From: Fodinibius salsisoli
Lineage (GTDB): Bacteria > Bacteroidota > Rhodothermia > Balneolales > Balneolaceae
DNA: 64,000 bases
Assembly (NCBI RefSeq): GCF_026229185.1
Contig: NZ_JAGGJA010000009.1
Span: 62,001 to 126,000 of the forward strand
Direction of reading: 5' to 3'
Shown: positions 3,901-23,978 of the stretch, in pieces
Position numbering within the stretch: position 1 is the first letter of the stretch
How the letters are laid out: the number at the start of each line of letters is the position of its first letter
The notes under the pieces: model-generated
Told to the model about the DNA's origin: nothing
Databases searched by the model: none
Seen by the model: the letters and a program-made list of their open reading frames with translations, nothing else
Translations under genes and position numbers: made by a program

Positions 3901-4263
3901 AGTGCCCTTCTGATCAATGAAAAAAAGGAGGGGTTTAAGGTAAAGGCGTTGCCGCACAAAGCCCAGATATCTTCAGTTAACGATATTATCATGGAGGATA
4001 TGGACGGTGATCAGGATTTGGACCTTGTGGTAGCTGGCAATATGTATGGCATGAATTCGGAGGTCCCCCCCAACGATGCCGGGAATGGCTTGGTGTTGCT
4101 TGGGGACGGAAAGGGGGAGTTTAAGGCTCTCTCATCACAACGAAGTGGTTTTTGGGCGCCGGATCAAGTCAATACGCTAGCTTCATTTCAGATAGGAAAT
4201 AGAAAATATGTCCTCGTCGCTAATAATAAGGGCCAGCCTGGATTGATGAGAGTTAGAAGATAA
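928..4263 (+). CDS. FG-GAP/VCBS-repeat lipoprotein with UnbV/ASPIC domain (CRTAC1-like)
   Basis: A large surface or periplasmic lipoprotein of about 1111 residues, probably a beta-propeller scaffold or glycan-binding protein. The ATG at 928 gives MSQRLIQAFSMIALALAVGAC with a lipobox ending at Cys21; an in-frame TTG at 907 would add seven residues. At least a dozen FG-GAP calcium-binding loops are visible, such as DINNDGLPDLYF, DVNRDGWPDVFV, DLDNDGDLDVAI and DIDGDGDMDLAA. An ASPIC/UnbV domain lies around residues 516-602 (NPGGIGAQLMLSVDG, then VIWPDG). In this group such proteins are commonly encoded beside SusC/SusD loci or carbohydrate-degradation genes. Here it precedes the sugar-acid gene cluster, and a paralogue lies at 49128. 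Enzymatic activity is not indicated. Confidence 0.88.
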   Translation: MSQRLIQAFSMIALALAVGACQWLKTEEPATLFEKVSADETSIHFSNDISYDKEFNVLNYSYIYNGGGVAAGDINNDGLPDLYFTGNMVSSRLYLNKGNFEFEDITESSGTGTSHWAGGVSMVDINQDGYLDIYVSVSGPEQTTGKERANRLFINNGDSTFTESARAYGLADTSYTSHTAFLDYDKDGDLDAFLMNNFTGSFSLDSKKGVRPEVNDGSSPSVDRLYRNNGDGTFTEVSRQAGILKEGYSLGIAVSDVNRDGWPDVFVSNDIQTDDLLYINNGDGTFTDRAAAFLKHTSYAGMGTDIADFNKDGWPDILQVDMMPPSLKDQHLVSGATSYEYLSELEEKGYQPQFTLNTLQLNNGVDPKGRARFSEIGQMAGIAHTDWSWSGLFGDYDNDGLKDIMITNGYPKTVNNYDYLMKLNRSTMFGTDSSRAVRRYNTMDNLPTLKLSNYIFRNNGDLTFRDMSQAWGSDEQTFSYGAAQVDLDNDGDLDVAINNINGKATILNNRADTLRNNQYLKVRFEGNSLNPGGIGAQLMLSVDGQKQYRYHNPYRGYQSTMSSEMHIGLGKQPVVDSLSVIWPDGYRQQLTAIPANQTLTLRYRDASKPRETERASSGNPFFRQAHNLGIDYTHTENNYNDFAKEPLIPYMHSRLGPAVAIGDVNHDGRDDIFLGGARGSAAQLYLQQEDGTFAVSGGQPWQDDDAYEDIDATFFDANGDELCDLYVVSGGNSFSPTSAQLQDRLYLNTGSGSFIKADDMLPRMYTSGSTVKEGDFDADGDQDLFVAGRQVPGQYGGDAESYILRNDGGNFTNVTADIAPDLVKPGSLTDGVWIDFNRDGALDLIIAGEWMPIRFFANQSGRFQEVTQTLGIEEHQGWWQSLAKGDIDGDGDMDLAAGNIGLNNRYSIMGDSGLHLLSADFDRNRQRDAILTIRKQNGYYALPGMRSMAKQLPRMTQHVQSFKTFSKSSIADIFGEDAVNSADKKSANYFASALLINEKKEGFKVKALPHKAQISSVNDIIMEDMDGDQDLDLVVAGNMYGMNSEVPPNDAGNGLVLLGDGKGEFKALSSQRSGFWAPDQVNTLASFQIGNRKYVLVANNKGQPGLMRVRR

Positions 4264-4804
4264 TACGAAGTTAGCCAACCGATCTAGCATTTACGTTGCT
4301 ACCATTTTTATGAAGTCACATCCTTTTGAAAGGAAGTAAAACTTTTTTCGTGAGAAGATGGTTAAAGAGAAATAAATTTTAAAAAAGTAGGCTTTTTCTG
4401 TAGAGCAGTTTTGCCACTCGTACGTATTTATATCAGAAGTTGGGTGTAAAGAAAAGCTTAATTCCAAAATGGCAATACATACGGCTTATGTGAGGGTAGA
4501 TCGTCTAGTCCAATCGTTAGGTTGAACTCATGAATTTAGCCCCTTCAAATGACTGATTTTTCTGAGTTAATCTGCTGAGACAGTTTGTGAGCGTGTCTTT
4601 TGGGTACTTCCGAAAATTAAACAGGCGATGATATAGGAGGAAAGGCCCATATAGTAGTAAAAAATTAGCGCATAAATTTTTTCCCCATTGACTCAAATTA
4701 ATTAAAATTAAGGCAAGCGGTTAGGCGTCGTTTGGGAATACGATTAAAATAGGCCTGATACCTTATCAAAATTAATTAGACCATTAAAGTATAAGCCAGT
4801 AAAT
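4264..4804. other. Long intergenic region before the sugar-acid cluster
   Basis: This 541-base stretch is AT-rich and contains no convincing ORF. A weak hairpin (TCCTTT 4321-4326, AAAGGA 4329-4334) lies 8 bases before a run of six T at 4343-4348 and could help terminate the upstream gene. I could not recognise a clear Bacteroidota-type -33/-7 promoter, though the promoter for the downstream cluster must lie here or within the upstream gene. Confidence 0.4.
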
Positions 4805-5743
4805 ATGAGATATTTAAAATCCTACTCAATCTTTGTTTTTGCTTTTTGTGTACTCTTCCAGTTTTCATCGGAAGCCCAGACTATTCCAGAGGAAAAGCTT
4901 ATAGCGCTAACCCCGGAGTGGGAAGGCGAACGGTTTGACGATGGCCGGCCCAAAGTGCCAGCTAACATTCTGGAACGGATGGAGCATGTAACCATAGAAG
5001 AAGCCTGGGGTATCATACGTGAGGAAGGATATCATAACCAGTTTGAAGGCGGTAAGTGGGAAGTCCTTCATCCGGATGAACCCATTGTTGGTCGGGCACT
5101 AACGGCAACCTATACGCCGGCACGTCCCGCAGTGCAAGAACAAATTAAAGCCCAGGGAGAAAAAGATGGTCGTTCGGGCCCACCCAACACCTGGCCAATC
5201 GATATGCTGGAGCAGGGCGATGTCTATATCGCTGACGGCTACGGAAAAGTTAAGGATGGTACCTTAATTGGGGATCGGTTAGGCAATACCATTTATGCTA
5301 ACTCCGGGAATGGCGTTGTATTTCATGGCTCCTCACGTGATCGGGAAGGACTTTCGGAAATAGAAGGATTTAATGCTTTTGTTCGGGCCTGGCATCCTTC
5401 TTTTATCCAGGAGATGATGCTCATCGGACTCAATACCCCCACACGTCTTGGATCGGTTACCGTAATGCCGGGTGACGTGGTGCTTGCGAAGAAAGAAGGG
5501 GTGATTTTTATTCCGGCTCACCTGGCCCAAAAGGTAGTGGATGAGTCAGAAGTCATTCGGGTCAGGGATACGTTCGCCCATGAAAAAGTACGCAGCGGAA
5601 CCTATACCGCAGGGCAAATGGACACCGAATGGACCGAAGAGATAGAAGTAGATTTCAAAAATTGGGTAGAAGAAAACAGCCAGCGACTGAAAGAAGAAGT
5701 AGGGGTGAGCCAGGTAACCATTGACAATTTAGTAGAAGAATAA
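4805..5743 (+). CDS. Exported RraA-family aldolase-like protein
   Basis: A member of the RraA/HMG-aldolase family (metal-dependent pyruvate or oxaloacetate aldolases and related folds), 312 residues. The family signature is visible around residues 150-180: GTLIGDRLGN, then GNGVVFHGSSRDREG, equivalent to the G-D...V-x-x-G-x-x-R-D active-site strand. Unlike classical cytoplasmic RraA (about 160 residues), it has a Sec signal peptide (hydrophobic residues 9-20, cut probably after SSEA) and an extended N-terminal region. It is first in the run of exported sugar-acid enzymes; the next start codon follows in 48 bases. I infer retro-aldol cleavage of a 2-keto-3-deoxy or related acid, but a non-catalytic role is possible. 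Confidence 0.82.
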   Translation: MRYLKSYSIFVFAFCVLFQFSSEAQTIPEEKLIALTPEWEGERFDDGRPKVPANILERMEHVTIEEAWGIIREEGYHNQFEGGKWEVLHPDEPIVGRALTATYTPARPAVQEQIKAQGEKDGRSGPPNTWPIDMLEQGDVYIADGYGKVKDGTLIGDRLGNTIYANSGNGVVFHGSSRDREGLSEIEGFNAFVRAWHPSFIQEMMLIGLNTPTRLGSVTVMPGDVVLAKKEGVIFIPAHLAQKVVDESEVIRVRDTFAHEKVRSGTYTAGQMDTEWTEEIEVDFKNWVEENSQRLKEEVGVSQVTIDNLVEE

Positions 5744-5790
5744 GTGAATCCGGGAATTTTAACGATGACAATAATATAAATTGGTGATTT

Positions 5791-7215
5791 ATGGATAATA
5801 GTAGAAGGAATGGTAAGGGCGAAGATCGAAGAAGTTTTCTTAAAAGAGCGGGCTTGGGGGGCTTGGGACTCGGCTCCATGATAATGGCACCCTATCGGAA
5901 TCAGATAGAGCACGCTACCTCAAAAGTAAACCGCAATTCCTCTCCCTCTGAGCTGGAAATAACCGACATGCGTATTGCCGAAGTGGATGGCATCCCATTC
6001 CGCATCCCGATTATCCGTATTGATACCAACCAGGGAATTTCCGGATATGGCGAGGTGCGTGACGATGGTGATCCGCGCTATGCCTTAATGCTGAAAAGCC
6101 GCATTTTGGGCGAAAATCCTTGTAATGTGGAAAAACTGTTTAAAATGATCCGACAGTTTGGCTTCCACGGTCGCCAGGGTGGAGGCGTTGCCGGGGTCGA
6201 AACTGCCCTGTGGGATTTAGCCGGTAAAGCCTATGGCGTGCCCGTTTACCAATTATTGGGTGGTAAATACCGCGACAAAGTTCGCCTCTATGCGGATACG
6301 GCAGGGGCCGACGATCCTCATGTTTTTGCCAATCGGATGAAAAAGACGCGGGTTGATAAAGGATATACCGCCTTAAAGATGGATATCGGTATTGGCCTGG
6401 TGGACGACATTTCCGGAGCGTTGACCAATACACATCACCATGCGCCGCAGGGCGAGCGGGGACTGCAAAGTCAATATTCGGGCACCCCCGGAGAGTATGG
6501 GCAGATCGACCATCCTTTTACCCGCATTCAGATTACCGAGAAGGGTCTCGACAGGATTGAAGAGTTTGTAAGCGTCATGCGTGATACCATCGGCTATGAA
6601 ATTCCGCTGGGTATCGATCATACCGGTCATTTCGATACGGATGAGGCTATTAAATTGGCCCGTCGGCTGGAGCCTTACACGCTGTCCTATATGGAGGATC
6701 TGGTTGCCTGGGAATGGGTGGATAAGTGGAAGGAAATCACCACTTCAACCACGACCCCGACTGTTACCGGGGAAGATATATTTGGACTGGAGGGTGGTTT
6801 TAAAGAGCTGATTGACAAGCAAGCCGTAAATATAGTGCATCCGGATCTTGGATCGGCGGGCGGTATCCTGGAATCAAAACGTATTGGTGATTATGCCGAA
6901 GACGGAGGCATCGGTATGATGCTGCACTACGCGGGATCGCCCATTGGATTTTTTGGGTCCGTCCACGCTGCTGCAGCCACGCAAAACTTCCTCTGGCTGG
7001 AGCACCATTCGGTAGAAAATGAGGCTTGGTACAGCCTGATATCTGATGATACGGTTGTATTTGATGAGGGCTATGTGCCCGTTCCGGAGAAACCGGGCCT
7101 TGGATTTGAGTTGAATGAAGAAGCAATAAAAGAGAACCTGACCGATGATTCAGGCTTTTTTGAGCCAACACCCGAATGGGACGAGCGTCGGTCATGGGAT
7201 CGTCTCTGGAGTTAG
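5791..7215 (+). CDS. Tat-exported enolase-superfamily (mandelate racemase/MLE type) sugar-acid dehydratase
   Basis: A 474-residue enolase-superfamily protein, probably an aldonate dehydratase or epimerase acting outside the cytoplasm. A twin-arginine signal RRSFLK is followed by a Gly-rich hydrophobic stretch ending near residue 33. The N-terminal capping domain contains VETALWDLAGKAYGVPVYQ. The barrel shows LKMDIG (general-base strand) and metal ligands in GIDHTGHF (about 275), YMEDL (about 302) and TGEDIF (about 328), with a late His in LHYAGSP (about 378). The protein ends WDERRSWDRLWS, almost as in its paralogue at 8521, and the two are clearly a duplication. Substrate cannot be read from sequence. 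The Asp-His pairing of the first ligand resembles acid-sugar dehydratases rather than muconate cycloisomerases. Confidence 0.85.
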   Translation: MDNSRRNGKGEDRRSFLKRAGLGGLGLGSMIMAPYRNQIEHATSKVNRNSSPSELEITDMRIAEVDGIPFRIPIIRIDTNQGISGYGEVRDDGDPRYALMLKSRILGENPCNVEKLFKMIRQFGFHGRQGGGVAGVETALWDLAGKAYGVPVYQLLGGKYRDKVRLYADTAGADDPHVFANRMKKTRVDKGYTALKMDIGIGLVDDISGALTNTHHHAPQGERGLQSQYSGTPGEYGQIDHPFTRIQITEKGLDRIEEFVSVMRDTIGYEIPLGIDHTGHFDTDEAIKLARRLEPYTLSYMEDLVAWEWVDKWKEITTSTTTPTVTGEDIFGLEGGFKELIDKQAVNIVHPDLGSAGGILESKRIGDYAEDGGIGMMLHYAGSPIGFFGSVHAAAATQNFLWLEHHSVENEAWYSLISDDTVVFDEGYVPVPEKPGLGFELNEEAIKENLTDDSGFFEPTPEWDERRSWDRLWS

Positions 7216-7331
7216 TCTCCAGGGAAATACAAGCCGTATTAAATGGAGTCAGGCCGGAGGAGGAGAAATTCGGTCATGGCTTTTATTCTTATTATCGGAA
7301 AATATAACGTTAAGTATTAAAATATTTAGTT

Positions 7332-8471
7332 ATGCAGACGTTTTATCGGGCGCTATTATATTTAAGTGGATGCTTTTTCCTCGCAATATTGATTGCCTTA
7401 GTGGCAGGCTTTGGAGCGGGAGTAATCGGTCCGCTGACGATCGCAATGTTCGTAGCCCTTGCTCTGGGCGTTCGGAGTACGGATACGTTATTTAAATCAT
7501 TTTCTTTTTCCATCTGGATTTTTGCTTCCGTCTCACTGGCGATGTTTTATCCGGCCATGATTGTTGAGGTCGGTGGCTTCGATACCAGCCAGCTGATTGT
7601 TCCCCTTATTCAACTCATTATGTTTGGGATGGGCACCCAGTTGAGCCTGAGTGATTTTAAAGGCGTCCTGAAACGTCCACGTGGTGTGTTGGTCGGGATG
7701 GCCTGTCAGTTTACCATTATGCCGCTGGTGGGTATCAGTCTGGCACTGACCTTCGGCTTTCCAGCCGAAATAGCCGCTGGTGTGGTACTTATCGGATCCT
7801 GTCCGGGCGGGGTAGCCTCCAATGTAATGGCCTTTATTGCCGAGGCAGACTTAGCTCTCTCCATCAGCCTGACAGCTGTCGCTACTATGGTTTCGCCCTT
7901 TGTAACACCAATGCTGATGCAGCTTTTGGCCGGCCAGTTTGTGCCCATTGACGCCTTGGGTATGATGTGGAGTATCCTCAATATGATTATTCTGCCCATC
8001 GTACTGGGACTGATATTTAACCACTTTCTGCATGGTAAAGCCAAATGGCTGGATGATATAATGCCGGTGGTCTCCATGGTCGGCATTGCCGTCATTATCA
8101 CCGTCATTACCGCCGCTGGAAGAGATTCATTAGTCTCTATCGGACTGCTGTTGGTTCTGGCAGCTATCATTCATAATGCTGTGGGCTACTTCCTGGGTTA
8201 TTGGGGAGGACGAATGTTGGGGATGGACGAGAAATCGTGCCGTACCATTGCCCTGGAGGTAGGGATGCAGAACGGAGGGATGGCTTCCGGGCTGGCCGCT
8301 GAAATGGGCAAAATTGCCACCGTTGGGCTGGCACCGGCCGTCTTTGGTCCATGGATGAATGTATCCGGCTCGACTTTAGCTAACTGGTGGCGACGAAAGG
8401 CCCTGAAAAAAGAGGGTTCCGAACAGTCGCCTCAGGCTGAACCCACACCAACGGTTAGTGAGTCTAAATGA
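7332..8471 (+). CDS. BASS-family sodium:organic anion symporter
   Basis: An inner-membrane transporter of the bile acid:sodium symporter (BASS) family, 379 residues with about ten or more hydrophobic segments. The family signatures are present: GSCPGGVASNVMAF (about residues 155-170, sodium-site region) and ALEVGMQNGGMASGLA (about 305-320). The two N-terminal hydrophobic segments (residues 8-60) form an extension before the usual BASS core, and a charged tail (KKEGSEQSPQ) closes the protein. It sits between two paralogous enolase-superfamily genes. I infer uptake of a small carboxylate product (a keto acid, 2-keto-3-deoxy acid or similar) generated in the periplasm. BASS members known to carry pyruvate or pantoate make this plausible; a true bile-acid role is unlikely. 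Confidence 0.88.
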   Translation: MQTFYRALLYLSGCFFLAILIALVAGFGAGVIGPLTIAMFVALALGVRSTDTLFKSFSFSIWIFASVSLAMFYPAMIVEVGGFDTSQLIVPLIQLIMFGMGTQLSLSDFKGVLKRPRGVLVGMACQFTIMPLVGISLALTFGFPAEIAAGVVLIGSCPGGVASNVMAFIAEADLALSISLTAVATMVSPFVTPMLMQLLAGQFVPIDALGMMWSILNMIILPIVLGLIFNHFLHGKAKWLDDIMPVVSMVGIAVIITVITAAGRDSLVSIGLLLVLAAIIHNAVGYFLGYWGGRMLGMDEKSCRTIALEVGMQNGGMASGLAAEMGKIATVGLAPAVFGPWMNVSGSTLANWWRRKALKKEGSEQSPQAEPTPTVSESK

Positions 8472-8520
8472 TGAGAAGTTTAAATGTTAACAACAAGTAT
8501 AAGTAAGAGAAAAGGGATTT

Positions 8521-9918
8521 ATGAACAAAAATAGTAGTAGCAATGGTCGCCGGAGTTTTTTGAAAAAGATGGGATTAGGCGGATTAAGTTTGGCCGGTTT
8601 CACATTGGCTCCAATGCAAGATCAGGTAGCCTATGCCACTCAAAATGTACAGCAGAATTCCAGTCCTTCAGATCTAAAGATTACAGATTTACGGGTGACG
8701 AGAGTCCTGCGGACTCCAATCATCAGAATTTATACCAACCAGGGCATCGTTGGGCACGGGGATGTCCGCGATATTGGTGATTATCGCTATGCCCTGATGC
8801 TTAAGAGCCGCATCCTGGGACAAAATCCGTGTAATGTTGAAAAGCTCTTTAAAATTATAAGCCAGTTTGGCCACCATGGGCGCCAGGGCGGAGGTGTTTC
8901 GGGAGTAGAGACCGCCCTCTGGGATTTAGCCGGTAAGGCGTATGGCGTGCCGGTATATCAAATGCTGGGCGGCAAGTACCGGGATAAGGTTCGTATCTAC
9001 TGCGATACCACCATGTCCAAAGATCCACAGGAGTATGCTCGTCGCATGCAGGAGCGGGTCGATGCCGGCTATACTTCCCTGAAGATGGATATCGGCATCA
9101 GCTTGGTTGAGGATGTTGAAGGGGCACTTGTAAATGCGGAGTTCTGGAAAAACAGGCCGGGCGGTATGAGCGGCTGGAATTCTATACCGGGCAGTTACTC
9201 AAATACGGAGCATCCCTTTACGCGGGTACAAGTTACCGAAAAAGGGATTGACAAGCTGATGGAGTATGTGGATGTCATGCGGTCGCAGATTGGTTATGAA
9301 ATTCCGATGGGCACCGATCACTGGGGACATTTTGGGGTTAACGAAGCTATTAAGCTGGCCCGGGCTGCTGAGCCTTATAACCTGGCCTATATGGAAGATC
9401 TGATTCCATGGACCTACACCAACCAGTGGAAGAGAATTACGGATTCAACCACAACTCCAACCCAAACGGGCGAAGATATATTTATGCTCAAAGGGGGATT
9501 CAAAGAACTGATCGATAACCAGGCGATTAATGTGATTCATCCCGACCCGGTCGGCTGTGGCGGCCTGCTGGAGACGAAAAAGATTGGGGACTATGCTCAA
9601 AAACAAGGCATCCCCATGCAGCTGCACCACGCCTCTTCACCAGTGTCTTTTTTAGGCGCTGTTCATGCAGCCGCAGCAACTGAAAACTTTCTGTGGTTGG
9701 AGCATCATTTCGTAGATACGCCCTGGTACGATGATCTGGTTACGGGCGTAAAAAAGCCGATTGTTCAGGATGGGTATGTGCCGGTGCCCGAAAAACCTGG
9801 TCTTGGGGTAGAGCTTAATGAAGAGGTTGTGAAGAAACACATGGATCAGGAGATAGGCTTTTTCGAACCAACCCCGGAATGGGACGAATCGCAATCTTGG
9901 GATCGCTTATGGAGTTAG
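8521..9918 (+). CDS. Second Tat-exported enolase-superfamily sugar-acid dehydratase
   Basis: A 465-residue paralogue of the protein encoded at 5791, with the same architecture. The Tat signal is RRSFLKKMGLGGLSLAG. Shared landmarks include VETALWDLAGKAYGVPVYQ, LKMDIG, the ligands in GTDHWGHF, YMEDL and TGEDIF, the late LHHASSP, and the WDESQSWDRLWS ending. Differences cluster near the active site: DHTGHF becomes DHWGHF, LVAWEW becomes LIPWTY, HYAGSP becomes HHASSP, and the loop after residue 200 (EFWKNRPGGMSGW) is different. The pair therefore probably handles two different substrates or epimers. The gene follows the BASS transporter by 49 bases and likely shares its transcript. Confidence 0.85.
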   Translation: MNKNSSSNGRRSFLKKMGLGGLSLAGFTLAPMQDQVAYATQNVQQNSSPSDLKITDLRVTRVLRTPIIRIYTNQGIVGHGDVRDIGDYRYALMLKSRILGQNPCNVEKLFKIISQFGHHGRQGGGVSGVETALWDLAGKAYGVPVYQMLGGKYRDKVRIYCDTTMSKDPQEYARRMQERVDAGYTSLKMDIGISLVEDVEGALVNAEFWKNRPGGMSGWNSIPGSYSNTEHPFTRVQVTEKGIDKLMEYVDVMRSQIGYEIPMGTDHWGHFGVNEAIKLARAAEPYNLAYMEDLIPWTYTNQWKRITDSTTTPTQTGEDIFMLKGGFKELIDNQAINVIHPDPVGCGGLLETKKIGDYAQKQGIPMQLHHASSPVSFLGAVHAAAATENFLWLEHHFVDTPWYDDLVTGVKKPIVQDGYVPVPEKPGLGVELNEEVVKKHMDQEIGFFEPTPEWDESQSWDRLWS

Positions 9919-9990
9919 GTTATTGGATGACTTTAAAAAACAGCTACTCATTCTTCCATCCTAATTTACTTGAAAATAAAATTGAAACTT

Positions 9991-11364
9991 ATGAGGTCAT
10001 TCGTCCAGTGGTACACGATAATAGCAGGCTTTTTGGTATTGGTGATATCATCAGCATGCGAACAGAAGCAGGCTGATTCAAGCCTAAATTTGCTTTTTCA
10101 ACAAAAAAAGATTGCTGCTGAGATTGATAGCGTACTCAATGATCAATATCAGCTGTGGTATCCCCGGACGGTTGACGAGGAATATGGCGGTTTTCTAAGC
10201 CAGTTTAGCCGTGACTGGCAGCTTTCGGGTTCTCAAGACAAATTTATTGTCACCCAGGCGCGGCATGTATGGTCCAGCTCTAAAGTTGCCCGCCATGATA
10301 GCACACACAAAGATTTCGTACAATACGGACAGCATGGTTTTGAGTTTCTGCAAAATATAATGTGGGATAAGGAGTACGGCGGATTTTATGATCTTGTGAG
10401 TAGAGATGGCAAGGTGCTGCCTGATGAGGCCGGCAACATCCGGAAGCAGCTATATGGCAATGCGTTTGCCATTTATGGATTGGCCTCGTACTACGAAGTG
10501 TCTCAAAATAAAGAAGCCCTGGACTTGGCTAAAAAGGCGTTTAACTGGCTTGAAAAAGGATCTTATGATAAGCAGCATGGAGGCTATTTTAATAGTCTTA
10601 CACGCGAAGGTCAGCCTTATGAATCCGGGCTTGCCAAAGATTACAACAGCGGGATCCATATCCTGGAAGCGTTGGCTGAGCTGTACCAGGTATGGCCCGA
10701 CAGCGTTGTGCGAGACCGGCTCTATGAGATGTTCAGGATTGTACGCGATTCCATTGTGACGGACCAAGGATATATGAACCTGTATTTTCGCGCTGATTGG
10801 CAGCCGGTGACGTATGAAGATTCATCCCGCACGCTGCAGCAGGAAAATCAAGACATCGACCATATTACCTTTGGGCACGATATTGAGACAGCTTTCTTGT
10901 TACTGGAGGCCGCGCATGCCCTGGGTTTTGAGGCAGATTCTACTCTATCGAAGGCCAAGAAAATGGTCGATCATACCATTGAGCATGCTTGGGATCATGA
11001 GGACGGAGGCATATATGATTATGGCTATTACTTCCAGGGCGATGATAGCCTGACGGTGACTTCAACATCCAAAGAGTGGTGGTCACAGGTAGAAGCCCTG
11101 CATTCCCTGTTGATTATGGCCCGGTATTTTCCCGATGATCCGCATAACTATTTCGATCTCTTTGCCAAACAGTGGGCCTATATTAAGGAATACATGCTCG
11201 ACCATGAATATGGCGGCTGGTACCGGAGCGGAATCGATGAAGACCCCGAAGTCCGGGGAGCGTCCAAGGCTTCGATCTGGAAAGGGAACTACCATACGGT
11301 ACGAGGATTGCTGAGATCGAAGGAGCTTCTGGAAACCATGATTCAAAACAGAAATTCAGAATAG
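9991..11364 (+). CDS. AGE-family (N-acylglucosamine/cellobiose 2-epimerase-like) lipoprotein
   Basis: An alpha/alpha-barrel sugar 2-epimerase or aldose-ketose isomerase of the AGE superfamily, about 457 residues. The ATG at 9991 gives a compact lipoprotein signal with ISSAC at Cys23; an in-frame TTG at 9970 is a possible earlier start. Conserved AGE features are RHVWSSSKVAR near the N-terminus, KQLYGNAFAIYGLA, HITFGHDIETAFLLLEA (about residue 289; catalytic His region), WWSQVEALHSLL and the C-terminal WKGNYHTVRG (about residue 431; second catalytic His). Most AGE enzymes are cytoplasmic, so a lipid-anchored version is unusual. Within this cluster it would interconvert a free hexose or oligosaccharide before oxidation. 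It ends 16 bases before the PQQ dehydrogenase gene. Confidence 0.85.
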   Translation: MRSFVQWYTIIAGFLVLVISSACEQKQADSSLNLLFQQKKIAAEIDSVLNDQYQLWYPRTVDEEYGGFLSQFSRDWQLSGSQDKFIVTQARHVWSSSKVARHDSTHKDFVQYGQHGFEFLQNIMWDKEYGGFYDLVSRDGKVLPDEAGNIRKQLYGNAFAIYGLASYYEVSQNKEALDLAKKAFNWLEKGSYDKQHGGYFNSLTREGQPYESGLAKDYNSGIHILEALAELYQVWPDSVVRDRLYEMFRIVRDSIVTDQGYMNLYFRADWQPVTYEDSSRTLQQENQDIDHITFGHDIETAFLLLEAAHALGFEADSTLSKAKKMVDHTIEHAWDHEDGGIYDYGYYFQGDDSLTVTSTSKEWWSQVEALHSLLIMARYFPDDPHNYFDLFAKQWAYIKEYMLDHEYGGWYRSGIDEDPEVRGASKASIWKGNYHTVRGLLRSKELLETMIQNRNSE

Positions 11365-11380
11365 AGTTGTCTGTCCGTCT

Positions 11381-13552
11381 ATGAAAATTGTTGATTTCTG
11401 CCGGGGGAACGTAAAGTCTTATGCTTTTCCCGGATGTATTGCGGTTCTTTTACTGCTATTACTGATCGGATGCCAATCCGGGGAGGATCGGAATTGGGCA
11501 ACATATAAAAGTGATGCCGCCAGTTCCAGCTATTCTGCGCTCAGGCAGATCGATAAACAGAATGTAGACCAGCTGCAGGTGGCCTGGAAATACGAGGTCG
11601 GAGATGCCGAAGAAGAGGCTTATTCGACTATTGAAACGAATCCCCTGGTCGTCGATGATGTGCTTTACGGGGCGTCTCCCTTTCTGAAAGTCTTTGCCTT
11701 GGATGCAGCAACAGGAGAAGAGTTGTGGCGCTTTGATCCTTTTGAGGGCGAACGTGCCAGTGGTTACATGCGATCGGTTGTGTACTGGGAAGACGGTAGT
11801 GACCAGCGGATACTGTTCTCAGCAGGCACCAACCTTTATGCACTGGATGCTTCCACCGGCGAACTGATAACAGACTTTGGGAATCAGGGAAAAGTGGATT
11901 TAAATGTTGGGCTTGGGAGAAATCCGGATGAAATTTCCGTCAAAGCGTCTTCACCCGGCATTATCCACAACGATCTGCTTATTATGGGGTCCGCTGTGGG
12001 AGAGGGATACAATGCTGCACCCGGACACATCCGCGCGTACAATGTTCGGACAGGAGAAATTAAGTGGACGTTTCATACCATCCCACAGCCCGGAAAACCC
12101 GGCGCGGAAACATGGGCCGGCGGGGCCCCTGATTCGCTTCAGAACCGTGGAGGGGTGAATAGCTGGGCCGGAATGAGCCTGGATACGGAACGAGGTATTG
12201 TGTATATCCCGCTGGGTTCGCCAGTCTATGATTTTTACGGCGGAGATCGAAAGGGAAAGAATCTGTATGGTAACTCCCTGTTGGCTTTGAATGCTACATC
12301 AGGGGAATACATTTGGCACTACCAGACTGTTCATCATGATTTATGGGATTATGATTTGCCGGCGCCTCCAAATCTGGTAACAGTAGAACACGATGGCAGG
12401 GAGATCGATGCCGTAGCCCAGGTAACCAAAACGGGTTTTACATTTGTATTTAATAGAGAAACGGGCGAGCCCCTTTTTCCCATTGAAGAAAAGCCGTTCC
12501 CTGCATCCAGTATTGCATCTGAGCAGACATGGCCAACACAACCAATTCCAACTAAACCTGAGCCTTTCGTTCGGCAGGGGCTCCATAAGGAAGATATTAC
12601 AACCAGAACGCCGGAAGCCCATGATTCTGTTCAGGCTAAGCTGCAAACCTATCGCAACGAAGGACTTTTTACTCCGCCCGATCCCAAAGGAACGGTGCTG
12701 TTTCCCAGTACTCGGGGAGGAGCTAACTGGGGAGGGGCCGCATATGATCCGGAATCGGGTTTTCTCTTCATCAATGCTAATGAGACCCCCGAAATTACTA
12801 CAGTCAAGCAGGTGAAACGAGAACCAGCACCCGGCAAGTCGCTTTTTGATCGGGGTAAAAACTTCTACCTGCAAAACTGTGCTACTTGCCACGGAGGGGA
12901 CCTCGAGGGGCAGCATCCTATTTACCCACCATTGACCAATATTGCAGAGCAGCGGTCGGAGGAAGAAGTGATAGAAGTAATAGAGCAGGGCGGAGGCATG
13001 ATGCCGGCTTTTACCAATATTTCGGATGCCGAAAAAGAGGCAATTATTACGTTCTTATACAAACAAGGAGAAAATGCCCGTGCTGATAAAGAGGGCGTTC
13101 ATCAGCGAGTAGCTGAAAGCGAAAATGAAGGCCGATATATTAATTTAACCGCCTACAGCCGCTTGGAGGATCCCGATGGATTCCCGGGGGTTACTCCACC
13201 TTGGGGAACATTGAATGCCATCAACTTAAATACCGGAGAAATTGCGTGGCGTATTCCACTGGGGACGGAACCTAAATTGGAAACTAAAAATCCTACAGGA
13301 TTAGAAAGCTGGGGCGGGCCCATCGCTACAGCGGGTGGGTTGGTCTTCATCGGGGGGACTAAAGACAAGAAGTTTCGTGCTTTTGATAAGGATAGCGGTG
13401 AGCTGCTCTGGGAAACCACACTGCCAACGGGAGGTTTTGCAACTCCTTCAACCTATATGAGCAATGACAAACAGTACGTTGTGATAGCCGTGGGAGGAGG
13501 CAGAGGAACAAGGCCCGATGATTACTATGTGGCCTTTACGCTGCCCGATTAA
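11381..13552 (+). CDS. PQQ-dependent dehydrogenase lipoprotein with inserted cytochrome c domain
   Basis: A quinoprotein aldose/alcohol dehydrogenase-like eight-bladed propeller, 723 residues. A lipobox LLIGC follows the hydrophobic signal. Propeller text starts NWATYKSDAASSSYSALRQI and repeats W-rich, DAATGELLWRF-type blade motifs. A mono-haem cytochrome c domain is inserted near residues 485-565, with NCATCHGG (Cys500, Cys503, His504) and a distal Met in GGMMPAF (about residue 540). After it the propeller resumes (PPWGTLNAINLNTGEIAW). Membrane quinoprotein glucose dehydrogenases oxidise sugars to lactones; here the inserted haem would pass electrons on internally. The neighbouring lactonase supports lactone formation. 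No PQQ biosynthesis gene is seen in the window. Confidence 0.87.
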   Translation: MKIVDFCRGNVKSYAFPGCIAVLLLLLLIGCQSGEDRNWATYKSDAASSSYSALRQIDKQNVDQLQVAWKYEVGDAEEEAYSTIETNPLVVDDVLYGASPFLKVFALDAATGEELWRFDPFEGERASGYMRSVVYWEDGSDQRILFSAGTNLYALDASTGELITDFGNQGKVDLNVGLGRNPDEISVKASSPGIIHNDLLIMGSAVGEGYNAAPGHIRAYNVRTGEIKWTFHTIPQPGKPGAETWAGGAPDSLQNRGGVNSWAGMSLDTERGIVYIPLGSPVYDFYGGDRKGKNLYGNSLLALNATSGEYIWHYQTVHHDLWDYDLPAPPNLVTVEHDGREIDAVAQVTKTGFTFVFNRETGEPLFPIEEKPFPASSIASEQTWPTQPIPTKPEPFVRQGLHKEDITTRTPEAHDSVQAKLQTYRNEGLFTPPDPKGTVLFPSTRGGANWGGAAYDPESGFLFINANETPEITTVKQVKREPAPGKSLFDRGKNFYLQNCATCHGGDLEGQHPIYPPLTNIAEQRSEEEVIEVIEQGGGMMPAFTNISDAEKEAIITFLYKQGENARADKEGVHQRVAESENEGRYINLTAYSRLEDPDGFPGVTPPWGTLNAINLNTGEIAWRIPLGTEPKLETKNPTGLESWGGPIATAGGLVFIGGTKDKKFRAFDKDSGELLWETTLPTGGFATPSTYMSNDKQYVVIAVGGGRGTRPDDYYVAFTLPD

Positions 13553-13606
13553 AGCTGAAGAACAGGTCAATGACCAGCATTTGTTAACCTTAAATACTAT
13601 ACCAAT

Positions 13607-14599
13607 ATGAAAAAGCTCACATTTGTTTCTTTATCTATACTGGCCGTCTTGCTTATAATGACAGGATGTAGTGAGAAGTCGGAACAAAAACCCCAAGAGC
13701 AACAAAAAGTATCTGCCTCAGAGGCAGGGCACCATCCGGAAGCTATTGTCTCTCCTGGGGCTGCTCTGACAAAGGTAACGGGCGATTATATTTTTGATAC
13801 TGCCGGCTCCCCGCTTTTTATGGACGGGCGGCTCTATTTTACCAATAATAATTTTGATCAGCCGGAGGTCAGCCGCACGCTGCGCCAAAATCCGGATGGC
13901 TCGATTGATACCCTGGCCATGGATAATGGCGTGACCACAACCCTGCAAGCCAGCGGAAAAGGAACCATCTATGCCTGCCAGATGCTGGGTCATAAGGTGG
14001 TGGAGCTGGATACCGATGGACAAATAATCAATACCGTGGCGGCGAAATATAACGGAACACGCATTGACGGGCCGAATGATATCGTCGTGGACCAAAAGGG
14101 AGGGTTGTATTTTAGTGATTCACAGTTTATCGCAGGAGGCCAGAAGATGCAGGAAACTCCAGCAGTCTACTATGTAAATGAGGAAGGAGAACTAAGCAGG
14201 GTTATTGATGATATTCCCTTTCCCAACGGAATGGCGCTGTCACCGGAGGGAACGACGCTGTATGTAGCGAACACGCAAGGCGGTCATCTTCTGGCCTATG
14301 ATGTGAGGGAAGATGGAACCGTCCATAATAAACGGGATTTTGGAGCACTTAAGCTCGCTGAAGGGGAAGAAGAAAGCGGGGCTGACGGCATGGCGGTGGA
14401 TACGGAGGGTAATGTGTATGTGGCGACGACCAAAGGAGTTGGAGTACAGATTTTTAATCCACAGGGGAAGTATCTGGGCAACATAGAGACACCGACTCCT
14501 TCGAACAACGTGAGTTTTGGAGGCAATAATAATCAAATATTGTATATTACTGCCCAAGACGGTATCTACAGTATTCCGGTACAAATAAAGGGGTTGTGA
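13607..14599 (+). CDS. SMP-30/gluconolactonase-like lipoprotein
   Basis: A six-bladed propeller lactonase of the SMP-30/gluconolactonase/LRE family, 330 residues. The lipobox is LLIMTGC after a short basic N-terminus. Metal-site motifs are visible: GPNDIVVDQKGGLYFSDS (about residues 154-172, Asn ligand), PNGMALSPEGTTLYVANT (about 206-223) and ADGMAVDTEGNVYVATT (about 260-276, Asp ligand), ending with SNNVSFGG. It would hydrolyse aldonolactones made by the PQQ dehydrogenase encoded 54 bases upstream, outside the cytoplasm. The pairing of oxidase and lactonase is a standard functional couple. The next gene begins 7 bases after its stop, so they are almost certainly co-transcribed. Confidence 0.86.
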   Translation: MKKLTFVSLSILAVLLIMTGCSEKSEQKPQEQQKVSASEAGHHPEAIVSPGAALTKVTGDYIFDTAGSPLFMDGRLYFTNNNFDQPEVSRTLRQNPDGSIDTLAMDNGVTTTLQASGKGTIYACQMLGHKVVELDTDGQIINTVAAKYNGTRIDGPNDIVVDQKGGLYFSDSQFIAGGQKMQETPAVYYVNEEGELSRVIDDIPFPNGMALSPEGTTLYVANTQGGHLLAYDVREDGTVHNKRDFGALKLAEGEEESGADGMAVDTEGNVYVATTKGVGVQIFNPQGKYLGNIETPTPSNNVSFGGNNNQILYITAQDGIYSIPVQIKGL

Positions 14600-14606
14600 T
14601 GATTTT

Positions 14607-15752
14607 ATGGTAACATTCCTGCACACACTGGACAAACCAAGTCTATCAACAGCTTTTGTCATTTGGATGAGCCTTTTGTTAGGTGCTCCAAGCCTGATCT
14701 ACGGTCAGGAAAAAAGCCGTAACTTTCCAGTTCCACAAACACCTTTTGCTCCCCAAGAATATGTGGTTTATCAGACCCGAGACTCAATAACAATCGATGG
14801 GAAAATGGATGAAGCTTCGTGGCAGCAGGCAAAATGGACAGATTCCTTTGTAAAAGCAGCGAGCAAAGGAAATGTTATGCCAGAATATGCGACCAAAGTA
14901 AAGGTACTTTGGGATGAGGACTATTTATATGTGGGAGCTTACCTGGAAGATCCCCACCTGTGGAGCACGATGCATGAACGGGATATGCCGCTACATTTGG
15001 CCAATGCGTTTGAGATATTTATCGATCCTGATAAAGACACCTACAACTATATTGAGCTTCAAATCAATGCGTTGGGCACCATCTGGGACCTCTATCTGTC
15101 CAGACCCTACCGGGATGGCGGACAAGGGATAAGCGACTACAATCTGTTGAATTATCATTCCGCCGTGCATCTGGATGGAACTATCAACGAGCCGGGCCCA
15201 GAGGATGAAGGCTGGTCGCTCGAGTATGCCATCCCTATCCCGTCGATTTTGGCATTGGATACGGACAAGCAGTCTTTATCTGATGGCGACCAGTGGAAAG
15301 TGAACTTTCAGCGAGCACAACGACGGTTAGAAGTTACAGATGGAGAATATCAGCTTGCCCAAGATCCCACAACCAACAAACCTTATCCCCCGGATTACTC
15401 CGTATGGTCGCCCCAGGGCATTATAAATATTCACTATCCCGAAATGTGGGGATTGCTACAGTTTTCAGAAGCAACAGTGGGCGACGACGAGGTGCCGTTT
15501 GAAGCGGATCCGGGGCAGCCGTATAAATGGTTATTACGACAACTTTATTATGAGATGAAGGAATTTCAATCATACCATGGCTATTTTCCCAATAATATCC
15601 AGGCCCTGAATATTAAAGATCCATTGTGGGCTGAATATCAAGATCGTATTATGGTAGAAACAACCCGGTCGCTCTTTCAAATAACGCTTATGATTAAGGA
15701 AAGCGAAACGGTTTGGCATATCAACCATTTGGGTAGAATTTGGAGCAATTAA
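14607..15752 (+). CDS. Secreted carbohydrate-binding family 9-like protein
   Basis: A 381-residue exported protein with a CBM9-like domain, as found in xylanases and in stand-alone binding proteins. A signal peptide (hydrophobic residues about 14-32, cleavage after LIYGQ or so) precedes the domain. The domain signature is ITIDGKMDEASWQQAKWTDSF (21 residues shown in two parts: ITIDGKMDEASW and QQAKWTDSF), then VKVLWDEDYLYVGAYLEDP, NAFEIFIDPD and WSLEYAIP. No catalytic motif is apparent. It is the last clear gene of the sugar-acid cluster and may bind the sugar or glycan feeding the pathway. The start at 14607 lies only 7 bases after the lactonase stop. Confidence 0.8.
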   Translation: MVTFLHTLDKPSLSTAFVIWMSLLLGAPSLIYGQEKSRNFPVPQTPFAPQEYVVYQTRDSITIDGKMDEASWQQAKWTDSFVKAASKGNVMPEYATKVKVLWDEDYLYVGAYLEDPHLWSTMHERDMPLHLANAFEIFIDPDKDTYNYIELQINALGTIWDLYLSRPYRDGGQGISDYNLLNYHSAVHLDGTINEPGPEDEGWSLEYAIPIPSILALDTDKQSLSDGDQWKVNFQRAQRRLEVTDGEYQLAQDPTTNKPYPPDYSVWSPQGIINIHYPEMWGLLQFSEATVGDDEVPFEADPGQPYKWLLRQLYYEMKEFQSYHGYFPNNIQALNIKDPLWAEYQDRIMVETTRSLFQITLMIKESETVWHINHLGRIWSN

Positions 15753-15757: not shown

Positions 15758-16069
15758 ATGATTACTCGCAAAATATTAATAGTTTTCGTCTGGTTAACGT
15801 TAGTCAGTCTCCCTGTTCACAAGTGGTTCCAGAGCGGGCAGATCGCGGTATTCAGCACGCTACCTGAACAGAAACGGAGAAAGAAATCTTGGGTAATTAA
15901 TTTATCTGAAAAATTGAGGATAAATGGGAATAAAAGCCAAAATCATGGCTTAAAAGTTGATTGTTATCTTTTTATTAGTAATTTGTTAAAAGGATTATTT
16001 GATAGAATAAAACCGGGATTTAAAGAACACATCCTAAGAGAAAAACGCCACTGTGGATTCTGCTCCTAA
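15758..16069 (+). CDS. Uncertain short ORF, possibly the remnant 5' end of an exported protein
   Basis: I do not recognise this 103-residue ORF. It starts 5 bases after the CBM9 gene with a signal-like sequence (MITRKILIVFVWLTLVSLPV). After about residue 45 the composition turns AT-rich and looks non-coding (many Lys, Asn and Ile), and it overlaps the start of the sigma-factor gene by 17 bases. It could be the stump of a truncated gene, or chance. No domain is visible. Confidence 0.25.
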   Translation: MITRKILIVFVWLTLVSLPVHKWFQSGQIAVFSTLPEQKRRKKSWVINLSEKLRINGNKSQNHGLKVDCYLFISNLLKGLFDRIKPGFKEHILREKRHCGFCS

Positions 16070-16625
16070 ATTTAATTCTTTGCCGACAGATAATACCCTC
16101 GTTGAGCAAATAAAGAATCATGATGAGGAAGCTTTTGAAAAGCTTTTCCGCAGGTATTATTCGGGCTTACACCGTTTTTTGTGGGGATATGTGAAGAACA
16201 ATCAAATCGCGGAAGACCTGGTTCAGGAAGTGTTTGTGAGAGTCTGGGAAAACAGGGATGCTTTAAATCCCAATGAAAAAATAAAGACCTACATTTATAA
16301 AGTGGGCCGGAATCTTGCCATAGATCATAGCCGTCACCAAAAAGTGGTTCGGGAGTGGGAAGAAGAAAAGAAAGCGCTCCATAGTATTCCCATCCTGGGG
16401 AAAAAAATCGATGATCGTCTCCACAAGAAATTGATGCTGAAAGAAGTGAAACAGGCTATCGAAGATCTTCCGGAAAAGCGTCGCCTGGTGTTTATGCTAA
16501 GTCGTTATGAAGGGATGACCTACAAAGAAATAGCTGAAAAACTTGATATATCCGTCAATACCGTTGATACACAGATTTGCAGAGCCCTCAAAACGCTTCG
16601 CGACAAATTCTCTTCTTTCCTGTAA
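16053..16625 (+). CDS. FecI-type ECF RNA polymerase sigma factor (orphan)
   Basis: A 190-residue sigma-70 family ECF factor of the Bacteroidota expansion type. Region 2 is visible as DEEAFEKLFRRYYSGLHRFLW and IAEDLVQEVFVRVWENRD (shown as separate pieces), and region 4 as RRLVFMLSRYEGMTYKEIAE with the helix-turn-helix LDISVNTVDTQICRALKTLR. The GTG at 16053 is the first start after an in-frame stop; a TTG at 16080 is an alternative. These factors normally sit directly before a fecR anti-sigma gene and a SusC/SusD operon, as at 36069 and 61686. Here the next gene is hsdM of a restriction island on the opposite strand, so its partner is missing or displaced. Confidence 0.88.
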   Translation: MDSAPKFNSLPTDNTLVEQIKNHDEEAFEKLFRRYYSGLHRFLWGYVKNNQIAEDLVQEVFVRVWENRDALNPNEKIKTYIYKVGRNLAIDHSRHQKVVREWEEEKKALHSIPILGKKIDDRLHKKLMLKEVKQAIEDLPEKRRLVFMLSRYEGMTYKEIAEKLDISVNTVDTQICRALKTLRDKFSSFL

Positions 16626-18491: not shown

Positions 18492-18523
18492 TTTATATTC
18501 AGATTTATAGATTTATTATTAAT

Positions 18524-18552
18524 GGATTGACACACGGGTCAATCTGTACTAA
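18524..18552. repeat. REP-like palindrome just downstream of the RAYT gene
   Basis: GATTGAC (18525-18531) and GTCAATC (18538-18544) enclose ACACGG, followed by TGTACTA. This pattern (arm, A-C-R-C-R-G, arm, YSTRCTA) matches the palindromes at 19286 and 19402. It abuts the stop codon of the transposase gene. Confidence 0.7.
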
Positions 18553-19172
18553 AAATTGATATTCTGAGGATTATTGTTGTCTTTTTGCCATTGGGTCGGG
18601 TAGTGGGTGATATAATAGCGGATACGTTCTAATGATTCTTCATCCCGGATGATGTGATCGTGGTAATTGCGTTGCCATAATTTACGATCAAATGGCGGGT
18701 ACTGGCCATTTTTGACGCCTTTAATATATTTATTGGTCGTCATGGTTTTAAACCATTGAACAATTTTCGGAATAGACGCCTGCCGCGGTTCAAAATCCCG
18801 TTGGGGCGATGCCGGTTGGGATGGACCCGCGTGTCCATCCTGATTATGGCGGTCGTTTTTGTCAGGGCAGAGACGCGGGCCTGCTCCTACGGTTTTATCG
18901 GAATCGATAATTTCGACGATGGCGTGAAAATGGTTAGGCATGATCTGGTAAACATCTAACCGGACGTTGGGAAATTTTTCAGGGATTTTATTCCACCATT
19001 CATCTGTTAACAGGCCAGCGGTATTTAAAATCATTTTGCCATTTTCGACATTCCCGAACAGGCAGGCACGGTTTTGCAGGCACAGGGTCAGAAAATACAA
19101 CCCCGGCGAGGCATAATCATAACCCTCCAGGCGGATGGAACGTCGGTTATGTTTTTTGGGGTCGTAGGTCAT
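18549..19172 (-). CDS. REP-associated tyrosine transposase (RAYT, Y1/IS200-like HUH family)
   Basis: A 207-residue single-strand transposase of the Y1/RAYT family, thought to mobilise or amplify REP palindromes. The metal-binding HUH motif is MPNHFHAIVE (His81, His83). The catalytic Tyr is most likely Tyr170 in LWQRNYHDHIIRDEESL. The N-terminus is typical: RRSIRLEGYDYASPGLYFLT. Residues about 94-118 (VGAGPRLCP, then QDGHAGPSQ) are encoded by two REP-like palindromes lying in frame inside the gene. REP-like palindromes also flank the gene on both sides. It stands between hsdS and hsdM in the same orientation. The reading frame is intact, so the element may still be active. Confidence 0.88.
   Translation of the reverse strand: MTYDPKKHNRRSIRLEGYDYASPGLYFLTLCLQNRACLFGNVENGKMILNTAGLLTDEWWNKIPEKFPNVRLDVYQIMPNHFHAIVEIIDSDKTVGAGPRLCPDKNDRHNQDGHAGPSQPASPQRDFEPRQASIPKIVQWFKTMTTNKYIKGVKNGQYPPFDRKLWQRNYHDHIIRDEESLERIRYYITHYPTQWQKDNNNPQNINF
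18819..18840. repeat. REP-like palindrome inside the RAYT coding sequence (1)
   Basis: GGATGGAC (18819-18826) and GTCCATCC (18833-18840) are perfect 8-bp arms around CCGCGT. It encodes residues 111-118 of the transposase in frame. Its orientation is opposite to the copies at 18525 and 19402. Confidence 0.7.
18865..18891. repeat. REP-like palindrome inside the RAYT coding sequence (2)
   Basis: GGGCAG (18865-18870), AGACGCGGGC and CTGCTCC (18881-18887), then TACG. The arms pair with one bulged base. The centre and the CCTACG tail match the REP-like copies outside the gene. It encodes residues 94-103 of the transposase in frame. Confidence 0.55.
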
Positions 19173-19285
19173 TGGTCAACCAATTATTGCTAATAGTAAT
19201 ATATATAATCCGAATTCGGGTATTTTTTATCCTTGGTTATCGTTTCTAACGGAGACAATATCTTGGTTTTTTATCGTTTTCTTCA

Positions 19286-19313: not shown

Positions 19314-19355
19314 TTTTTGAATTCGTACCCAGTTGGGATAACCCCGGTTCCCGTT

Positions 19356-19379: not shown

Positions 19380-19401
19380 GAATAGGACAATCCACTTTAT
19401 C

Positions 19402-23972: not shown

Positions 23973-23978
23973 TTATCA

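Follow-up and report, generated by a model that had tools for sequence, protein, structure and literature searches.

An operon for putative exported sugar-acid enzymes in the salt-loving Fodinibius salsisoli and a candidate Entner-Doudoroff-like pathway outside the cytoplasm

An operon for exported proteins of probable sugar-acid metabolism

We analysed a DNA stretch of 64,000 nucleotides from Fodinibius salsisoli (the window; bases 62001-126000 of contig C43, NZ_JAGGJA010000009.1), whose genome of 4.85 Mb lies on 43 contigs. At window positions 4805-15752, eight genes follow each other on the + strand in one run (RraA, ENO1, BASS, ENO2, AGE, PQQ, SMP-30 and CBM9), with intergenic gaps of 47, 116, 49, 51, 16, 54 and 7 bases in this order. 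An initial annotation of the window had taken them for a complete sugar-acid pathway whose enzymes all carry export signals. The gene families named there were recovered, as each of the eight proteins matched Pfam above the gathering score (RraA-like, MR_MLE N and C in both ENO proteins, SBF, GlcNAc_2-epim, PQQ, SGL and CBM9_1). Related NCBIfam models were also matched, but the curated cut-off was reached by none of the eight, so no protein of the operon has a certain substrate. The genes are the following.

4805..5743, + strand: exported RraA-family protein, proposed 2-keto-3-deoxy-acid aldolase (Sec signal; D157-X20-R178-D179; PF03737, 58.7 bits)
5791..7215, + strand: ENO1, enolase-superfamily protein exported by twin-arginine translocation (Tat), proposed sugar-acid dehydratase (MR_MLE_N and MR_MLE_C; invariant Tat RR)
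7332..8471, + strand: BASS/SBF-family carboxylate transporter, probably sodium-coupled (PF01758, 135 bits; PanS model, 257 bits)
8521..9918, + strand: ENO2, Tat-exported enolase-superfamily protein, 63% identical to ENO1 (MR_MLE N and C; invariant Tat RR; AlphaFold2 model)
9970..11364, + strand: AGE-family (cellobiose 2-epimerase-like) lipoprotein (PF07221, 145 bits; lipobox SSAC)
11381..13552, + strand: pyrroloquinoline quinone (PQQ)-type dehydrogenase lipoprotein with a cytochrome c domain (PF01011, 666 bits; PF13442 at 490-559; lipobox LIGC)
13607..14599, + strand: SMP-30/gluconolactonase-like lipoprotein (PF08450, 143 bits; lipobox MTGC; AGSP replaces the EGP motif)
14607..15752, + strand: CBM9-like exported protein (PF06452, 44.8 bits; Sec signal, likely cleaved before Q)

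Export signals and their conservation

Signal sequences were called with a rule-based script of our own and not with SignalP. A signal class was found in 7/7 of the non-transporter proteins (two Sec, two Tat, three lipoprotein), and BASS is a membrane protein. RraA has a Sec signal that is likely cleaved between SSEA and QTIP. The Tat motifs read DRRSFLKRAG in ENO1 and GRRSFLKKMG in ENO2, and TatC is encoded in the genome. Lipoboxes were found in AGE (SSAC), the PQQ enzyme (LIGC) and SMP-30 (MTGC), and the Sec call of CBM9 was the weakest of the seven.

As controls, 14 cytosolic-type open reading frames (ORFs) of the same window, named by eye, were scored; 13 of them had no signal and a SIS-domain gene scored as Sec. 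The five other enolase-superfamily proteins of the genome were all without signal, and a sixth match, below the cut-off, is the glycolytic enolase, which shows no signal by eye. When residues 2-60 of the operon proteins were shuffled, the same class returned in 0.2 to 12% of the trials, the 12% belonging to CBM9, and a signal of whichever class was scored in 1.4 to 14.4%. The script errs on the lenient side, as 278/595 unrelated ORFs of at least 200 amino acids in the fetched loci were flagged, and a short-chain dehydrogenase/reductase (SDR) of locus L003 was also flagged, probably falsely.

The conservation of the signals across relatives is the stronger argument for export. Matches with at least 60% coverage and 35% identity were counted, leaving out + strand ORFs cut at a contig start and the loci L072-L106, L001 and L002; the proteins of the window itself are part of the counts, as is the pair L004/L109, which is one genome counted twice. 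Of 96 RraA rows, 89 were positive for a signal. Of the seven rows without a call, five have either a signal that can be recognised by eye or a start that is over-long; the remaining two, from Latescibacterota, do begin at the domain. A Q after a small residue stands just ahead of the mature part in 72/96 rows. Such a Q-rule for Bacteroidetes signal peptides is described in PMC5837995 and PMC10653852, and according to the accessible part of the former it does not span the whole FCB group. Tat was called by the rule in 17/17 ENO1 rows and 19/23 ENO2 rows. The RR pair was invariant in all 24 aligned enolase-type proteins, which were 24 of 25 non-redundant full-length rows selected (L121 was left out).

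We conclude from these results that the seven export signals of the initial annotation hold, both by the script with its controls and by conservation. A Tat motif by chance is disfavoured by a background of only 16/595 ORFs. A plain cytoplasmic pathway with false signals was also ranked lower, on account of the five signal-free enolase relatives and the signal-free enolase in the same genome and of the RR pair kept in 24 proteins. The Latescibacterota loci L060 and L064 were considered as a guide to a cytosolic version and set aside, since their neighbours resemble dioxygenases and unrelated genes by eye.

RraA is linked to either of two sets of exported proteins

Enolase-superfamily dehydratases convert 2,3-dihydroxy acids into 2-keto-3-deoxy acids. 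DgaE-type ammonia-lyases form the same kind of product from 2-amino-3-hydroxy acids, and RidA speeds the deamination of the enamine/imine. Genes of both types were found around RraA. We compared 88 loci, 68 from a peptide-pattern scan of genome contigs with RraA and 20 from Balneolaceae, with L109 left out as a duplicate. They were found through RraA itself, by peptide pattern and by protein search, so its constancy there carries no weight. By their titles, the 68 loci belong to Flavobacteriaceae, Cytophagales, Chitinophagales, Lewinella-type bacteria, Verrucomicrobiota, Latescibacterota and KSB1. Labels were given from 24% identity up; weak relatives without a signal stand behind several of the AGE labels and behind the ENO label of L060.

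Within 10 kb of RraA, 36 loci have an enolase-type gene, 41 an amidohydrolase and/or DgaE-type gene, one has both and 10 have neither. A branch thus stands beside RraA at 78/88 loci. When only the 50 loci with 6 kb or more of sequence on each side were taken, the numbers were 22, 24, 0 and 4, respectively. BASS is near RraA at 64/88 loci (39/50), AGE at 15/88 and SMP-30 at 20/88. The flanking genes named no single sugar, with GH92/alginate lyase in L048, an SSF symporter in L014 and an FAD oxidoreductase in L013. In L048 (14574-17915) one protein has alginate-lyase and GH92 (alpha-mannosidase) domains and lies beside an ENO-RraA-RraA-ENO-AGE array, a hint at mannose or mannuronate as substrate in that lineage.

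The usual order of the second branch in marine Flavobacteriaceae is a sugar dehydrogenase with cytochrome c, amidohydrolase, BASS, RraA, RidA, DgaE-type protein and RidA. Its representatives in L013 are a GSDH protein with cytochrome c, a PRK09237 amidohydrolase/deacetylase (443.9 bits, cut-off 371), proteins of the RidA family (Pfam Ribonuc_L-PSP) and a DgaE-family protein (193 bits, cut-off 385 unreached). Signals were called in the amidohydrolase (35/38), the DgaE-type protein (31/32, 29 of them Tat), the two RidA proteins (33/35 and 25/28) and GSDH (22/26). The window genome has this module as well, about 25 kb upstream of the window and hence out of view for the initial annotation (L131, 1640-8894; C43:29539-36793), in the order RidA, GSDH-cytochrome c, DgaE-type, SMP-30, RidA and amidohydrolase. 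The amidohydrolase reached NF006689 (PRK09237) with 423.6 bits over the cut-off of 371, and the best model of the DgaE-type protein was TIGR01437, with 173.7 bits below the cut-off of 385.3. Neither RraA nor BASS stands alongside this module, and in G011 (L115) the same module ends with amidohydrolase-RraA-BASS. The window genome has both branches but only one such RraA. Likewise, two DgaE loci but just one RraA were found in G068, where the RraA is sited with the enolase-type genes. An unusual expansion was seen in G069, whose 4.1 Mb genome gave ten matches to the DgaE-type protein.

The co-occurrence was then counted in whole genomes. Among 392 genomes of the phylum, RraA was found in 25 (E-value limit 1e-60), the enolase type in 16 (1e-100) and the DgaE type in 9 (1e-60); 16/16 and 9/9 fall within the 25. 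At least one branch is present in 20/25 genomes with RraA and in 0/367 others. The three samples of 392 genomes were taken as identical from their shared hit handles, with most non-hits unlisted. Among 92 Balneolaceae genomes, RraA was found in 17 (limit 1e-40), the enolase type in 14 (13 shared with RraA), the DgaE type in 8 (all shared) and the union of both in 17 (16 shared), which means a branch in 16/17 genomes with RraA and in 1/75 others. The misfits are G073, with RraA alone, and G053, with a partial enolase-type protein in a genome that is 64% complete. Of the 16 genomes with RraA and a branch, 5 have both branches, 3 only the DgaE type and 8 only the enolase type. Fisher tests gave 3e-29 for the union in the 392 genomes and 9e-16 in the Balneolaceae, values that ignore kinship and so cannot be read as true probabilities. 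The core that recurs most steadily consists of RraA and a keto-acid-forming branch, usually joined by BASS.

The second branch probably converts N-acetylamino sugars, giving a keto acid of the kind expected from the enolase type, and uses the same RraA. Two unrelated exported sets that are expected to share a product type, with a common partner whose family holds class II pyruvate aldolases, point to the reaction of RraA.

RraA as a proposed class II pyruvate aldolase

The AlphaFold2 model of RraA (predicted local distance difference test, pLDDT, 93.1) matches RraAS2 (5x15; Z 25.3, root-mean-square deviation, rmsd, 1.7 over 196 residues). The HMG/CHA aldolase 3noj, a LigK-type enzyme of an aromatic-acid pathway, shares the fold (Z 22.4, rmsd 4.4) with only 14% identity over 214 residues, and the NCBIfam model ligK_PcmE was matched with 48.5 bits, below its cut-off of 304.5. 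D157, R178 and D179 of the window protein stand in the spacing D-X20-R-D of the metal/catalysis motif of the RraA/HMG-CHA aldolase superfamily; the R-D part is shared with the LigK-type enzyme. The full motif is present in 86/96 RraA rows, and the alignment shows no exchange of R178 or D179 in any of its 49 proteins (49 of 51 selected rows; L059 and L126 were left out for over-long starts). Such motifs in the superfamily are described in the accessible part of PMC5065237, where the motif Arg proves important in the Pseudomonas putida HMG/CHA aldolase: with the exchange R123K, turnover of HMG drops from 15.6 to 0.086 per second. By its predicted fold and its motif, RraA fits a metal-dependent class II pyruvate aldolase.

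The closest named relative by RraA is Fodinibius sediminis (79% identity). A second RraA-family protein of the window genome lies on contig C33 (L130:9493-10332, - strand). It has a Sec-type start with an A before Q at the presumed cleavage site, seen by eye, and is near relatives of SusC, SusD and FecR.

A Bacteroidota enzyme of the same family is known to act on a 2-keto-3-deoxy sugar acid. As far as the available text of PMC8563752 describes it, FlDet of a Flavobacterium converts 2-keto-3-deoxy-D-glucarate as a dehydratase/decarboxylase in an alginate route. The substrates of the operon could accordingly be aldarates or uronates, with the exported dehydrogenase making an aldarate, ENO dehydrating it and RraA acting like FlDet on 2-keto-3-deoxy-glucarate to give alpha-ketoglutaric semialdehyde, which would be imported. 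The pairing of ENO-RraA-RraA-ENO-AGE with the GH92/alginate-lyase protein in the Spirosoma-type L048 would suit such a route. However, the keto acid expected from the DgaE branch is of the aldonate type (2-keto-3-deoxygluconate, KDG) and not an aldarate, and a semialdehyde dehydrogenase was not seen among the labelled cluster genes, some flanking genes being unlabelled. FlDet, which we compared by description only, has about 27 kDa, and the word periplasm is absent from the main text of PMC8563752 in its available part. We regard the aldarate route as unlikely and prefer an RraA that would cleave its keto acid.

The enolase-type proteins look like a distinct subgroup

ENO1 matched the NCBIfam models of the galactonate dehydratase DgoD with 208 bits (cut-off 311) and of ManD with 154 bits (cut-off 550), and ENO2 matched them with 186 and 154.5 bits; all four values are below the cut-offs. 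The AlphaFold2 model of ENO2 (pLDDT 85.6) had its best match in 2qq6 (Z 43.9, rmsd 1.7, 367 aligned residues, 32%), and it also matches 3rr1, an enolase of the galactonate-dehydratase type, with Z 40.9. All 24 enolase-type proteins of the alignment share K188, D190, D266, H267, H270, E292, E318, H369 and E394. Dehydratases of the DgoD/ManD type usually have a DxH on the third barrel strand with the catalytic His. This DxH is not in place here. The group has DHxGHF or DHxGHx instead (D266-H267-W268-G-H270 in ENO2, with position 268 variable), and it therefore looks like a distinct subgroup of unassigned specificity.

The different His on the third strand could also mean that these proteins are epimerases or lactone cycloisomerases and that the cluster remodels sugar acids with no degradation. 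The 3,6-anhydro-D-galactonate cycloisomerase 5olc (Z 40.6) and the galactarolactone cycloisomerase 4ggb (Z 39.0) score nearly as high as 3rr1 in the structural comparison. On the other side, the best NCBIfam models, although below their cut-offs, are all dehydratases (galactonate, gluconate/galactonate and mannonate), and DgaE chemistry in the partner branch should lead to keto acids. This makes an isomerase function quite improbable, and we retain dehydration as the proposed reaction.

The BASS protein and its possible cargo

The PanS equivalog cut-off of 400 was not reached by BASS (256.6 bits), and its solved relatives are the ASBT structures 4n7w and 3zuy. In ASBT-NM, Asn265 contacts pantoate, and a Ser at this site of other BASS carriers may allow keto-acid binding, according to the accessible part of PMC10645422. 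The Asn is kept in the operon family, as EVG[ML]QN[GA]G was found in 63/64 rows when placed by alignment, and the position of Thr112 is L, M or V in 64/64 rows. A pyruvate carrier of the plant BASS2 type was put lower because the site residues disagree with what is described there; pyruvate, glycerate or a keto-sugar acid remain candidates. The protein may carry pyruvate, and we speculate that the Asn site would also suit glycerate.

The grouping of BASS with PanS/ASBT carriers of pantoate-sized acids would agree with the keto acid made by ENO being imported whole. RraA would then be a side enzyme that removes, for example, oxaloacetate or hydroxy-keto acids. The genome has two KDPG-aldolase-family proteins, which could serve an imported keto acid once it is phosphorylated. 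Against this stands the near-complete co-occurrence of RraA with both branches, whereas BASS is near 64/88 of the RraA loci, which were found via RraA. A side role of RraA is unlikely, slightly more so than the aldarate route, and we keep RraA as the enzyme that would act on the keto acid itself.

Variable accessory proteins

AGE, the PQQ enzyme, SMP-30 and CBM9 are variable accessories that occur in some relatives only. AGE matched the EpiA model with 155 bits (cut-off of 800 not reached) and has the epimerases 8h1n and 5zig as solved relatives. In the PQQ enzyme, the cytochrome c domain is inserted between two propeller parts. It matched TIGR03074, the glucose/quinate/shikimate family, with 484 bits below the cut-off of 833, and its solved relatives are quinohemoprotein alcohol dehydrogenases. 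Homologues are present in F. sediminis (77%) and G065 (52%). SMP-30 has its closest solved structure in the exported gluconolactonase 3dr2 and a 70% identical homologue in G065. CBM9 occurs in both cluster types, since 44% identical relatives were found inside the amino-sugar-type clusters L118 and L119 (in L119 at 12090-13271, PF06452, 55.4 bits).

The variation of these four among relatives might mean that the signals are real but incidental and that exported paralogues scavenge leaked metabolites with no common pathway. That RraA is so closely linked to exported ENO or DgaE, and so regularly found with one of them in different families, argues against this, and we consider it very improbable. 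A common pathway with a fixed core and changing accessories is the reading that we follow.

A proposed pathway outside the cytoplasm

From the genes, families, signal sequences, linkage, co-occurrence, predicted folds and motifs, we infer the reactions, substrates, step order and BASS cargo as follows. AGE would epimerise an aldose, which the PQQ-cytochrome c dehydrogenase would oxidise at C1, passing the electrons to the respiratory chain. The lactone would open via SMP-30 or spontaneously. The Tat-exported enolase-superfamily dehydratase would then convert the 2,3-dihydroxy acid into a 2-keto-3-deoxy acid, and the Sec-exported RraA would cleave this to pyruvate and a short aldehyde. BASS would import a small organic acid with sodium. 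We think it probable, with appreciable room for doubt, that these steps form an Entner-Doudoroff-like route without phosphorylation, located in the periplasm, that RraA is its final aldolase and that the operon encodes its core. Within it, exported keto-acid formation followed by exported RraA is well supported, and the upstream steps and the import are weakly supported.

Several observations weigh against this proposal. RraA-family members also serve as RNase E regulators, and together with the FlDet dehydratase/decarboxylase this leaves aldol cleavage uncertain. In 10/96 RraA rows (L115, L116, L117, L120, L124, L127, L053, L056, L062 and L063), which come from both cluster types, the motif is without its first Asp; L115 and L116 are the RraA copies that in G011 and F. 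sediminis lie next to the amidohydrolase. A signal is lacking in two RraA rows from Latescibacterota, and neither branch was found at 10/88 loci, at 4/50 loci with sufficient flanks and in 5/25 RraA genomes of the phylum sample. To these come the missing DxH of the enolase-type proteins and, in BASS, an Asn of the pantoate type at the site where Ser is linked to keto-acid carriers. The SMP-30 proteins of the window and of G065 (L108) have AGSP where those of L131, L115 and L013 have EGP, so that their metal-ligand Glu seems lost. A gene for handling the aldehyde was not seen in the operon, and the genome was not searched for one. Finally, pqqC was not matched in the window genome, in a search without a positive control over the cut-off (0/392 genomes and 0/14 controls; matches below it only, in 30/392). 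On this lack of a match, own PQQ synthesis was ranked lower and PQQ would have to be taken up.

The claim of the initial annotation that the operon by itself is a complete pathway could not be upheld, in view of the variable accessories, the SMP-30 without the motif Glu, the Asn in BASS and the aldehyde gene not seen in the operon. Its idea of a periplasmic non-phosphorylating Entner-Doudoroff-like route gained from the comparative evidence as regards RraA acting after a keto-acid-forming step outside the cytoplasm, and stayed weak for the upstream steps and import. A conventional cytoplasmic sugar-acid route probably coexists, since on contig C1 one of the two KDPG-aldolase-family genes and an enolase-superfamily gene without a signal are only some 2.5 kb apart.

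Relation to known systems

Known non-phosphorylating Entner-Doudoroff pathways are cytoplasmic; their dehydrogenases are NAD(P)-linked, and their KDG aldolase is of the DHDPS type. The archaeal version has the same kinds of steps: aldose oxidation, lactone opening, aldonate dehydration by the enolase superfamily and cleavage to pyruvate and an unphosphorylated aldehyde. In contrast, the proteins studied here have export signals, a PQQ/cytochrome c dehydrogenase and a candidate aldolase of the RraA type. What would be new is the placement of a known kind of pathway outside the cytoplasm.

The second branch resembles the oxidative chitin pathway of the ong cluster in its kinds of steps (deacetylation, deamination and RidA). 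There, KDG arises from GlcNAc1A through the deacetylase OngB and the deaminase OngC, and cells require the RidA-family OngD to grow on GlcNAc1A, as given in the accessible part of PMC9537276. According to the same part, the ong reactions are cytoplasmic after uptake by OngIT, and KDG is phosphorylated by KdgK. Here, in contrast, the PRK09237-type amidohydrolase and the DgaE-family protein carry export signals, and RraA stands in place of the kinase and aldolase. The periplasmic 3'-ketolactose route of Bacteroidetes and Caulobacter (LacABC, DUF1080; PMC9007349) also has a sugar oxidation and an exported downstream enzyme, but the available part of that paper describes oxidation and glycoside hydrolysis and no dehydration or carbon-carbon cleavage outside the cytoplasm. 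A pathway of the proposed kind was not described in the titles and abstract beginnings of open-access papers among the matches listed, and a prior description is possible.

More tentatively, and with the balance slightly against it, central sugar breakdown including carbon-carbon cleavage might take place outside the cytoplasm in Bacteroidota and related phyla, with two exported modules, enolase-type dehydratases for hexoses and a set of amidohydrolase, DgaE-type lyase and RidA for N-acetylamino sugars, feeding one exported RraA aldolase. Only small acids would then cross the inner membrane, without ATP or phosphorylation. If this is true, pyruvate would be formed from sugars outside the inner membrane in widespread environmental bacteria, including marine Flavobacteriaceae, and pyruvate and aldehyde would be released to neighbours. 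It would also account for many proteins that are named only RraA family, mandelate racemase or RidA, and would give a group of RraA proteins a role in sugar-acid metabolism.

Neighbouring genes

One further gene is adjacent to the operon.

16053..16625, + strand: ECF sigma factor (TIGR02985, 164 bits, over the cut-off)

Upstream of the window, L003 encodes the SDR mentioned above, of the L-fucose dehydrogenase type (NF052481 over the cut-off), with a 2,4-diketo-3-deoxy-rhamnonate hydrolase-like protein (below the cut-off) and lutABC-like genes seen by eye (8178-9881 and 2239-5055). These are probably a separate cytoplasmic fucose/rhamnose-acid route beside the operon.

Further genes of the window were assigned by eye. 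At 17016-26808 there are Type I restriction-modification genes (hsdM, hsdS and hsdR) with a REP-type transposase and a Fic-domain-like gene in between. The genes at 30116-35917, a DeoR-type regulator, an amidohydrolase, a GatY-like aldolase, two PfkB kinases and a SIS-domain isomerase, resemble a cytoplasmic galactosamine-type route. Two similar tandem lipoproteins with a metallopeptidase-like HELGHGL motif and discoidin-like repeats were found at 53290-57127, close to two SusC/SusD pairs. A Gfo/Idh-like oxidoreductase at 60128-61462 has a Tat-like start, DRKDFLK, and is perhaps another exported sugar enzyme.

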